Assembly (NCBI GenBank): GCA_002839705.1
Contig: PGYO01000008.1
Span: 1 to 64,000, forward strand
Direction of reading: 5' to 3'
From: Methanobacteriales archaeon HGW-Methanobacteriales-1
Lineage (GTDB): Archaea; Methanobacteriota; Methanobacteria; Methanobacteriales; Methanobacteriaceae
DNA: 64,000 bases
A model generated the notes under the pieces. The model did no database searches. It worked only from the letters and a program-made list of their open reading frames with translations, and was not told the origin of the DNA. Both the position numbers and the translations under genes were made by a program. Of the stretch, positions 26,854 to 30,915 are shown one piece after another. The first letter of the stretch is position 1. Each line of letters begins with the position of its first letter.

Positions 26854-27387
26854 ATGAAAAAATACTTTTTAGCATTATTAGTTCTCTCTTTAGTGGTTTT
26901 TGCCTCTGGTTGTACTTCTAATACTGATACTAAAGACAATCAGACTAAAACTCTATCTCAAAATAATGTTTCATTCACCTATCCGGGCAGCTGGGTCATA
27001 GCCGATTCTCAGGCCAATGATACCATAGCTGCAGTAGCCGATCCAAGTTCAGTGAATGCTCAAAGTGGACTTGCACAAACAGTAGTCACAGTTCAACTTC
27101 AAGACCTTACAGGAACATTTGATTCCATGTATGCTGATAATTACAACTCTTTATTCAGTAATTCCAGCTATCAAAGAGTTTCTGAGGGTAATCTGACTCT
27201 AAATGGTAACACAGTACTTACAAATGTTTATACTGTTGATGCTGATGGTACAACTCTCAAACAAAAGGCCATCTGGATAAATGATAATAAAAAAGTCTAT
27301 GTAATCCTTTGCAGTGCACTTTCCACCCAGTTTGATGCGGAAAAACTGAATTTTGACATGATTATAAATAGTTTTAAAATTTCATAA
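26854..27387 (+). CDS. PsbP-like secreted lipoprotein (first of a pair)
   Basis: The 177-aa product has a signal peptide with a lipobox (SLVVFASGC, Cys20) and a domain resembling the PsbP-related lipoproteins common in methanogens. It contains the typical VSFTYPGSWVIADS start and an LNGNTVLTNVYTV strand near residue 115. Such proteins are attached outside the cell; their role is not known. It is a paralogue of the gene at 27646, sharing the YP-x-SW motif and the closing NFDMIINSFK pattern. Its start follows AGAGGTAATGTC. Confidence 0.7.
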   Translation: MKKYFLALLVLSLVVFASGCTSNTDTKDNQTKTLSQNNVSFTYPGSWVIADSQANDTIAAVADPSSVNAQSGLAQTVVTVQLQDLTGTFDSMYADNYNSLFSNSSYQRVSEGNLTLNGNTVLTNVYTVDADGTTLKQKAIWINDNKKVYVILCSALSTQFDAEKLNFDMIINSFKIS

Positions 27388-27645
27388 GCAATCCAACTTA
27401 GAATAAATCACTGTTTGGACCCGAGTTTTAAAACTATTTTTAATTATTTTCAATAAACCCCAAGCTCTTTTTTTTTAAATTATTTAAAATCTTTATTTTT
27501 ATAATTAGTACTTAATTTTTGCTAAAATTTATTTTAATTGAATATTTTTGTCTTTCTTTAAAATTTAATGATAAATAAAAAAATATAGAAAAATATATAA
27601 TTTTTAAAGGCCATATTATATTCTATATATTATGGAGTGAGCGAA

Positions 27646-28218
27646 ATGAAAAAATATCTTCCAATACTGGCTATAATAGCCTTGGTGGTATTTGTGGCGG
27701 GGTGTGTTGATAGTGGAACTACTAATAACACTACATCTAACATCACTGTACCAGATATCCCATCAAAAACCTATGCTAAGGATGGAATTTCTTTTAAATA
27801 CCCTGAATCGTGGACTAAGAGTAATGTGGTTAGTAAAACTACTAATACTTTGGCAATTGTTGCAGATCCAGATTCTGCAGATTCAAGCGGGAATTATAAC
27901 ACTTTAGCTGCAATTCAAACAGTTGCTTTACCTTCCAACATGACTCTGAAAGAAGCATATGATTCTATTTATTCAAATTATGAGAATGATTCGTCATATG
28001 TGATTGTTTCACAAAGAGTTTTTACTATAGATGGAACTACTGCCTATGAGAATATACATAAAATAAAGGTTAATGGAGTCACAAAAAAAGAAAGAGCAAC
28101 CTGGTTAGAGAAAAACGGAACAATATATGTTATATTGTGTGGAACTCTGCCTAGTGACTTTGATAGTCAACAAACCAACTTTGATTTAATCACTTATTCA
28201 TTCAAAGTTACTGCTTGA
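27646..28218 (+). CDS. PsbP-like secreted lipoprotein (second of a pair)
   Basis: I prefer the ATG at 27646 (190 aa), preceded by GGAGTGAGCGAA, to the GTG at 27637 that lies within the ribosome site. The product has a signal peptide with lipobox VAGC (Cys20 of the mature reading), then a domain with ISFKYPESWTKS and a closing NFDLITYSFKV. It parallels the preceding lipoprotein, so the pair arose by duplication. The 250-bp gap between them has its own TATA-like TTCTATATATTATGG region near 27620, so they may be regulated separately. Confidence 0.7.
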   Translation: MKKYLPILAIIALVVFVAGCVDSGTTNNTTSNITVPDIPSKTYAKDGISFKYPESWTKSNVVSKTTNTLAIVADPDSADSSGNYNTLAAIQTVALPSNMTLKEAYDSIYSNYENDSSYVIVSQRVFTIDGTTAYENIHKIKVNGVTKKERATWLEKNGTIYVILCGTLPSDFDSQQTNFDLITYSFKVTA

Positions 28219-29199: not shown

Positions 29200-30354
29200 A
29201 TGGAAATTGTACTTTGTGTAACAGGCAGTGTGGCTGCAGTAGAAACGGTTAAGCTTGCTCGAGAACTTCGGCGACAAGGAGCCGATGTAAAATGTTTTAT
29301 GAGTGATGATGCTTGTCATATAATTCATCCTTATGCTTTAGAATTCGCCACCGGCCAGGAAGTAGTTCTGGAACTCACGGGAAAAATTGAACATGTGAAA
29401 TATGCTCAAGCAGATCTTGTTTTGGTAGCACCGGCCACAGCCAATGTTATCAGTAAATTTGCATATAAAATGGCAGATAATCCTATAAATACTCTTCTTA
29501 TAACGGCTTTGGGCCATGATACACCTATTGTAATGGTTCCATCCATGCATGATTCCATGTACCGTTCTATAGAAGAGAATATCCACAAACTGGAAGAAGA
29601 AGGAATAAACTTTGTTCTACCTAGACTGGACGAAGGAAAGGCCAAATTCCCTTATCTGGAGGATATTGTTCTTCAGGCATTGAGACAAATTAATAACTCA
29701 GAAAATGATTTAAAAGGTAAAAAAGTCCTTATCAGTGCGGGAGGGACTTACGAGGCCATAGATCCTATTCGTGGCATTTCCAATCGCAGTTCAGGTAAAA
29801 TGGGCATTGAAATTGCTAAAGAGGCATTTATTCGAGGTGCAGAGGTTATTATGTTGGTGGGTGAGGTTAGCGTACCTGTTCCCCAATCATTTGAGTCTAT
29901 TAAAACAGTATCCAGCAAAGAAATGAATCAAAAAGCCCTGGAAATTATCCCGGAGTTTGATATTTTTGTATCATCTGCTGCGGTATCTGATTTTTCACCG
30001 TCAATTATAGAAAACAGCAAAATATCCTCGGATAATAAATTAGAGTTGGAATTAAAGCCAAATCCTAAAATTATTAATCAAATAAAACATAAAAATCCAG
30101 ATATTTTTCTGGTGGGCTTTAAGGCAGAATATAATATCTCTGAAAGTGAATTAATTGATTCTGCGAAAAAACAGATGGTAAAATCAGGCACGGATTTGGT
30201 AGTGGCCAATGATGTTTCTGTGGATGGATCTGGCTTTGGATCTGACAAAAATAAGGTAATGTTAGTGGATGATGAAGTCCAAAATATTCCTTTAAGTTCT
30301 AAAAAAGAAATTGCTCAAATGATCTGGGATAGAATATTACTTAAAATTGATTAA
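29200..30354 (+). CDS. coaBC: Bifunctional phosphopantothenoylcysteine decarboxylase/synthetase
   Basis: The 384-aa protein joins a CoaC flavoprotein domain (residues 1-165, with CVTGSVAAVE and the PATANVISKFAYKMADN motif holding the catalytic Asn) to a CoaB synthetase domain (about 170-384, with KVLISAGGTYEAIDPIRGISNRSSGKMG). It turns 4'-phosphopantothenate and cysteine into 4'-phosphopantetheine for coenzyme A. The domain order and length match the standard enzyme. The gene has its own AT-rich upstream region and no close partner. Confidence 0.93.
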   Translation: MEIVLCVTGSVAAVETVKLARELRRQGADVKCFMSDDACHIIHPYALEFATGQEVVLELTGKIEHVKYAQADLVLVAPATANVISKFAYKMADNPINTLLITALGHDTPIVMVPSMHDSMYRSIEENIHKLEEEGINFVLPRLDEGKAKFPYLEDIVLQALRQINNSENDLKGKKVLISAGGTYEAIDPIRGISNRSSGKMGIEIAKEAFIRGAEVIMLVGEVSVPVPQSFESIKTVSSKEMNQKALEIIPEFDIFVSSAAVSDFSPSIIENSKISSDNKLELELKPNPKIINQIKHKNPDIFLVGFKAEYNISESELIDSAKKQMVKSGTDLVVANDVSVDGSGFGSDKNKVMLVDDEVQNIPLSSKKEIAQMIWDRILLKID

Positions 30355-30621
30355 GGTGTTTGTTATAATGCATGATGATAATTTAGTGAAACATCAGGTC
30401 ATTATTAACCATTTAATTTATTTTTATTTTAATTAATTTTCTAAATTTTCATAAAAATATCTGCTAAATTTCAAAAGATAAACTAAACTTAATTATAACT
30501 AAATTTAGTAAATAATTTTTTCAAAATTTATTAATTCCATAATTTATTTAAAAATAATATTCATTCAAATTCATTAAAATAAAATAATAATGTTCAAATT
30601 CCTTTTAAAATCAATAAAATG
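30355..30621. other. AT-rich spacer between coaBC and the RNA candidate at 30622
   Basis: No ORF is supported. A CATGATGATAA stretch near 30371 resembles a box C but has no matching box D at a sensible distance. The rest is very A/T-rich, up to a sharp rise in GC at the structured element. Confidence 0.4.
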
Positions 30622-30741
30622 AGGTAAGTATTCACCTTCCAGAGTTTTGCCGCTTGTGGGAGTAGTAATTAATATAAAGACAAATACTCTGGAGGTGATA
30701 TTATGGCCACATGTTAGATAATGTGTGGGTAATTCCTACCT
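30622..30741. ncRNA. Candidate three-way-junction structured RNA
   Basis: This GC-enriched island in a 561-bp gene-free gap can fold into three helices. P1 pairs 30622-30628 with 30735-30741 and closes the whole element. P2 pairs CCACA (30707-30711) with TGTGG (30724-30728). P3 is a 12- to 13-bp stem pairing 30633-30645 with 30686-30697, with one bulged base and a 40-nt loop. P1 has an A-C mismatch if read on the plus strand but a G-U pair on the minus strand, which favours minus-strand transcription. A minus-strand TTTATATTTT box lies at 30754-30763. No known RNA family is recognised. The location next to the fibrillarin/Nop5 genes is suggestive only. Confidence 0.5.
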
Positions 30742-30915
30742 TATGTATTTTCTAAAATATAAAGTTTACACTTAAAATTAAAAAAGATTTTAAAATAATT
30801 TTATTAAAAAATTCGGGCAATAATCGTAATTATTTTTGAAAAATGGACTTTAATATCCAATTAAAATATTATTGGAATCAATAAGAATTCAATCAAAAAT
30901 CACCAAATTTCAACT
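30742..30915. other. AT-rich 3' region of the fibrillarin gene
   Basis: Between the RNA candidate and the end of the fibrillarin gene lies A/T-rich sequence with no ORF. It contains the minus-strand TTTATATTTT box at 30754-30763, the possible promoter of the candidate RNA, and T-rich runs suitable for ending the minus-strand operon. Confidence 0.35.

Follow-up and report, generated by a model that had tools for sequence, protein, structure and literature searches.

A conserved intergenic RNA of the Methanobacteriales, predicted to mask the translation start sites of archaeal histone mRNAs

In the genome of Methanobacteriales archaeon HGW-Methanobacteriales-1, the genes coaBC and fibrillarin converge on a gene-free gap (they end at 30354 and 30916, respectively), which holds an island of DNA able to fold back on itself. 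All positions refer to the window, i.e. the whole stretch of 64,000 nucleotides analysed here. What does this island encode, and on which strand? A sequence-only reading had proposed a new three-way-junction RNA, closed by a helix P1 and lying next to the fibrillarin/Nop5 operon. The 561-bp gap that it described was borne out, and so were its pairings: P1 comprises six Watson-Crick pairs plus A30627/C30736, which becomes a U-G pair on the minus strand only, as had been claimed; P2 joins 30707-30711 to 30724-30728 (CCACA/TGTGG); and P3 joins 30633-30645 to 30686-30697 in 12 bp, with T30638 bulged. The TATA-type box (TTTATATTTT) was likewise found at 30763-30754 of the minus strand. Compared with dinucleotide shuffles, the island folds with a z of -3.8 on the plus strand (1 of 200 shuffles as good) and -4.6 on the minus strand (0 of 200). 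The pairings of the island exceed chance, as judged from these values and from conservation across six genera, represented by eight genomes; the island is still recognisable in a second family.

The predicted features of the locus are collected in Table 1. Transcription is predicted to proceed from the minus strand and from a dedicated promoter. In type-A genomes the distance from the centre of the TATA element to the GGCC of the conserved core is 49-52 nt and an A-rich BRE-like element is present, while the intervening sequence is unconserved; in G001 the automatic choice fell on a second box, TTTATATT being nonetheless present at the corresponding place. Judged by this conserved spacing, the transcript would begin near 30733, inside P1, which explains the "slightly short" TATA spacing remarked on earlier. 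The U-rich 3' flank is consistent with termination at U-tracts, as described in PMC8716108, and U-tracts follow P3 in most genomes, the one in G136 being weak. The earlier proposal of a new structured RNA on the minus strand, served by that TATA box and outside the known families, is supported; the three-way junction is not, since P1 lies partly upstream of the predicted 5' end and is unconserved beyond the closest relatives.

Table 1. Features of the predicted sRNA locus (positions in the window).
Feature	Position	Strand	Remarks
Predicted sRNA gene	30610..30734	-	about 115-125 nt; 8 genomes from 6 genera share a conserved block
Predicted archaeal promoter	30756..30769	-	BRE-like GTAAAC (30769-30764) and TATA TTTATATT (30763-30756)
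Predicted 5' end	about 30733 (+/-3)	-	from the TATA distance; conservation begins there
P2 (5' hairpin)	30707..30728	-	CCACA/UGUGG in the window's genome
Antisense element 5'-GGCCAUAAUAUCACCUCCAG-3'	30689..30708	-	near-invariant; complements histone mRNAs at Shine-Dalgarno and start codon (CUGGAGGUGAAAUUAUGGCC)
P3	30632..30698	-	stem UCACCU-CCAGAGU / ACUCUGGAAGGUGA, one bulge, inner stem, large loop
Loop motif ACUCCCACA	30655..30663	-	identical in 8 of 8 type-A genomes; unpaired in most predicted folds
U-rich 3' flank (UCAUUUUAUUGAUUUUAA)	30602..30622	-	probable terminator; U-tracts after P3 in most genomes
Predicted 3' end	in the U-rich stretch	-	inferred from U-tracts
P1 of the sequence-only reading	30622-30628/30735-30741		probably incidental; unconserved beyond the genus, 5' part upstream of the predicted transcription start

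Searches for known RNAs with the Rfam 15 covariance models gave no match at the gathering score in the window and the eight homologous loci. The best sub-threshold match, a T-box (16.9 bits where 93 are needed), was regarded as due to chance, as were the other sub-threshold matches. ARAGORN found no tRNA or tmRNA, and the predicted transcript carries neither a C box (RUGAUGA) nor a D box (CUGA). A riboswitch or leader of a neighbouring gene was rejected, because both flanking genes, coaBC and fibrillarin, point into the gap and the RNA gene is relocated in two genomes (G136 and G138). A plus-strand pseudoknot between the P3 loop UGUGG and CCACA was also discarded, being broken in G138 and G003.

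The stretch is single-copy in its own genome. The two remaining genomes of its genus also have it (98% and 89%), as do G003, G006, G136, G137 and G138, which represent five additional genera, giving eight genomes in all. It resides between coaBC and fibrillarin in five of them (G000, the window's genome, G001, G002, G006 and G137) and beside fibrillarin in G003. G138 has it on a different contig and G136 in another place, fibrillarin and coaBC being only 37 bases apart there with no sRNA between them. These relocations indicate that the sRNA is an independent gene and not an untranslated region of the fibrillarin mRNA; together with the TATA element at a fixed distance, they mark an intergenic gene with its own predicted promoter. 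They also bear on the functional tie to fibrillarin and Nop5 that had been put forward. A three-way-junction RNA acting with these proteins would account for the gene adjoining their operon in most genomes, and yet the gene is found elsewhere in two, the CUGA and RUGAUGA boxes and any Rfam match are missing, P1 is neither conserved nor transcribed according to the prediction, and its sequence suggests histone mRNAs as targets (see below). We therefore give this reading hardly any credence.

In the second family the RNA was first found with a minus-strand model, and a pattern search then located it in all eight genomes. Where the flanks were read, its neighbours are fibrillarin and coaBC and its orientation is unchanged, G151 excepted. 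In G149, one of these genomes, the homologous site is C1:1118606-1118710 on the plus strand. Both families have in common the TATA element, the block GGCCAUAAUUUCACCUCC, a P3 hairpin and the U-rich tail; P2 and the ACUCCCACA loop are not among the common parts. In G151 (L175, 218-1507) a tyrosine-recombinase-like or integrase-like ORF adjoins the sRNA in fibrillarin's usual place, and the sRNA gene may have served as an integration site. Family f2 and G139 possess histones, and no such RNA was found at their fibrillarin/coaBC locus; a predicted helix-turn-helix gene, named by eye from its sequence, fills the place downstream of fibrillarin in these genomes (L242-L245, L251). Covariance-model matches in G057, G072, G011, G100 and others were assigned to chance, as was a match inside a nadC-like gene (L174, G107), and a search of plasmids for the stretch returned chance matches only.

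What might the RNA act on? Its most conserved stretch, GGCCAUAAUnUCACCUCC(AG), running from 30708 to 30689, is antisense to the Shine-Dalgarno sequence and start codon of archaeal histones, and the least variable block across genomes reads GGCCAUAAUnUCACYUCC. Two histone genes, at G000:C2:41652- and G000:C4:57453+ in the window's genome, account for weak BLAST matches of the reverse complement, which fall on their Shine-Dalgarno and start codon. When eight whole genomes were searched with the pattern, allowing up to two mismatches, 20 sites were found besides the sRNA itself. Histone starts account for 12 of these (none with the reversed control), and the remaining eight lie mostly inside genes or are without a start codon. 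In a ranking by ungapped complementarity score (the gapped RNAduplex ranking being noisy), histones 1 and 2 outscored every background start site, with z 8.3 and 6.6 against 372 such sites in the window's genome and z 8.9 and 5.0 against 406 in G149, from the second family. Complementarity to the translation starts of mRNAs encoded elsewhere, covering Shine-Dalgarno and start codon, thus exceeds chance. Where the sRNA and a histone start site differ, the duplex of minus-strand sRNA and mRNA can for the most part accommodate the change as a G-U pair. A third histone (MELPIAPIGRI) shows no match to the antisense element.

The same complementarity could be read from the other side, with the plus strand as the functional one: a histone-leader mimic (GGAGGUGAUAUUAUGGCC), serving as a decoy or surviving as a relic of a histone 5' end. 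This strand does reproduce a histone translation start followed by a tiny ORF, and its fold also beats shuffles. However, the conserved TATA element and U-tracts belong to the minus strand, the fold z is lower there in seven of seven genomes, and the SD-like arm becomes GGAAG in G138 and G136 with P3 pairing retained. The ORF (ATGGCC..TAG), also rejected as a coding candidate, comprises just 2-6 codons and its peptide is unconserved. A functional plus strand is in our view very improbable.

Half of the antisense, UCACCUCC, is identical to the archaeal anti-Shine-Dalgarno sequence at the 3' end of 16S rRNA, and could pair with many Shine-Dalgarno sequences. The RNA might accordingly be a general anti-Shine-Dalgarno molecule, copying the rRNA end and pairing with many mRNAs, with the histone match as a by-product; the window's genome offers 47 GAGGTGN5ATG sites. 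Several observations make this unlikely. The invariant block extends 9-10 nt past the anti-Shine-Dalgarno (GGCCAUAAU), and among those 47 sites GAGGTGA[AT]ATTATG occurs only at histone 1, histone 2, the sRNA locus and one KH-domain gene, its continuation GGC being restricted to the histones and missing from the KH-domain gene. Moreover, the histones outrank all background start sites, and the loops of Methanobrevibacter RNAs (described below) match histone start-codon sequence beyond the Shine-Dalgarno. The KH-domain protein gene (G000:C3:104907; L389; MTTTEYLKIPRERVGVLIGKKGE...) carries GAGGUGAAAUUAUGACCACC, which complements the sRNA at about 17 of 19 positions, making this gene a possible additional target.

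According to the minus-strand folds computed for each genome, the RNA is composed of the 5' hairpin P2, a mostly open linker (GGCCAUAAU), the hairpin P3 and the U-rich 3' flank, with no P1-closed three-way junction. We judged structures from these individual folds, since the RNAalifold consensus retains few pairs because the bulges slide. P3 pairs are exchanged between genomes (C-G/U-A, A-U/G-C, G-C/U-A/A-U), and the P2 hairpin persists in G136 as CCUAUG/CAUAGG and in G137 as GCCCAU/AUG-GGC, with other pairs and in another register. The register of P2 varies, and P2 is absent from the computed fold of G006. The bulge of P3 shifts in position, mostly within the 3' arm, which we take to mean that the 5' arm is under an additional constraint. 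The loop ACUCCCACA matches no histone start site of the window's genome.

Taken together, we consider it likely that the minus strand from about 30734 to 30610 encodes a trans-acting sRNA, with its own promoter and U-rich terminator, that masks the ribosome-binding site of histone mRNAs and thereby represses them. The linker GGCCAUAAU and the 5' arm of P3, UCACCUCCAG, would provide some 18-20 nt complementary to the main histone mRNAs, from the Shine-Dalgarno through the spacer to AUG-GCN. In the proposed mechanism, the open linker would seed on the region of the histone start codon, the duplex would then invade P3 and cover the Shine-Dalgarno, and binding of the 30S subunit would be blocked, lowering histone synthesis. 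Part of the antisense element is locked in P3. In the two genomes tested by joint folding, the full duplex of sRNA and leader formed with histones 1 and 2. The net gain on pairing is about -8 kcal/mol in the window's genome, where 34/200 and 39/200 shuffled RNAs did as well, and in G149 it was matched by only 2/200 and 0/200. It is from sequence that we infer transcription, binding, repression and a role in histone dosage.

Pairing alone does not give the sign of regulation, and the same sRNA with the same targets might instead activate or stabilise histone mRNA, e.g. by protecting its 5' end, in the way that sRNA154 of Methanosarcina mazei stabilises some mRNAs (PMC5867862). We hold this to be improbable, as a duplex spanning the Shine-Dalgarno and AUG is the repressing geometry in sRNA162 (PMC3510493) and in the sRNA154-glnA2 and sRNA41 cases (PMC5867862).

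Other genera, Methanobrevibacter among them, also have a predicted RNA between fibrillarin and coaBC, on the same strand as in the window and made up of a TATA element, a hairpin UUGCUAAUGCAA, a stem and a loop UUCAC..CUCAU..ACUCC(ACA/AUA). These RNAs carry a loop related to ACUCCCACA, namely ACUCCACA/ACUCCAUA. The RNAs as a whole are diverged, and their loops can be matched to start sites of their own histones: UAAUUCACUCAUA with UAUGAGUGAAUUA (G019), CUCCACAUU with AAUGUGGAG (G007, G012, G015 and G018), CUCCAUAAUU with AAUUAUGGAG (G019 and G023) and AUAAUCACUCCA with UGGAGUGAUUAU (G004). The matches are short (8-13 bp) and fall within the best 0.4-2% of background start sites (G015, G021). 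This is suggestive of targeting of the cognate histone start sites with apparent co-variation, and synteny, orientation and the similar loop are likewise suggestive of shared descent with the RNA of the window. We lean slightly towards an sRNA for histone dosage spanning the whole order, syntenic across the Methanobacteriales, in which the histone targets are kept and the antisense module shifts between linker and stem (in this clade and in Methanothermobacter-like genomes) and loop (in the Methanobrevibacter type), co-varying with the histone paralogues.

Masking of ribosome-binding sites by sRNAs is an established mode of regulation in methanogens. The intergenic sRNA162 of M. mazei consists of stem-loops and a single-stranded linker, pairs with mRNA and masks its ribosome-binding site (PMC3510493). 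The RNA described here resembles it in genomic setting and architecture, the masking being in this case predicted from sequence; however, no sequence relation was seen, and the target of sRNA162 is a transcription-factor cistron instead of histone mRNAs. No homologue of sRNA162 was reported outside Methanosarcina (PMC3510493), whereas the sRNA of the window is recognisable across two families. In sRNA154 and sRNA41 of M. mazei, anti-RBS sequences mask the ribosome-binding site (reviewed in PMC5867862), and the one in sRNA154, situated in a loop, is reminiscent of the loop of the Methanobrevibacter-type RNA. These RNAs differ in sequence, belong to another order and act on nitrogen-fixation, glutamine synthetase and ACDS mRNAs, with no control of histones. 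Archaeal C/D box sRNAs, the guides of fibrillarin and Nop5, are of similar size, and our RNA has fibrillarin and nop5 as genomic neighbours, but it is without a C or D box, and the complementarity observed concerns mRNA start sites, not rRNA methylation sites. Among the open-licence papers searched, none was found that describes archaeal histones under the control of an RNA. This would be a new sRNA family of the known RBS-masking kind with a new class of target, histone mRNAs. Little is known of how the amounts of chromatin proteins are set in archaea; a conserved antisense RNA on histone start sites, if true, would link chromatin dosage to RNA regulation and represent an unusually old archaeal trans-acting sRNA.

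Elsewhere in the window, upstream of the KH and coaBC genes, two similar predicted lipoproteins of 177 and 193 amino acids are encoded in tandem (26854-27387 and 27637-28218).
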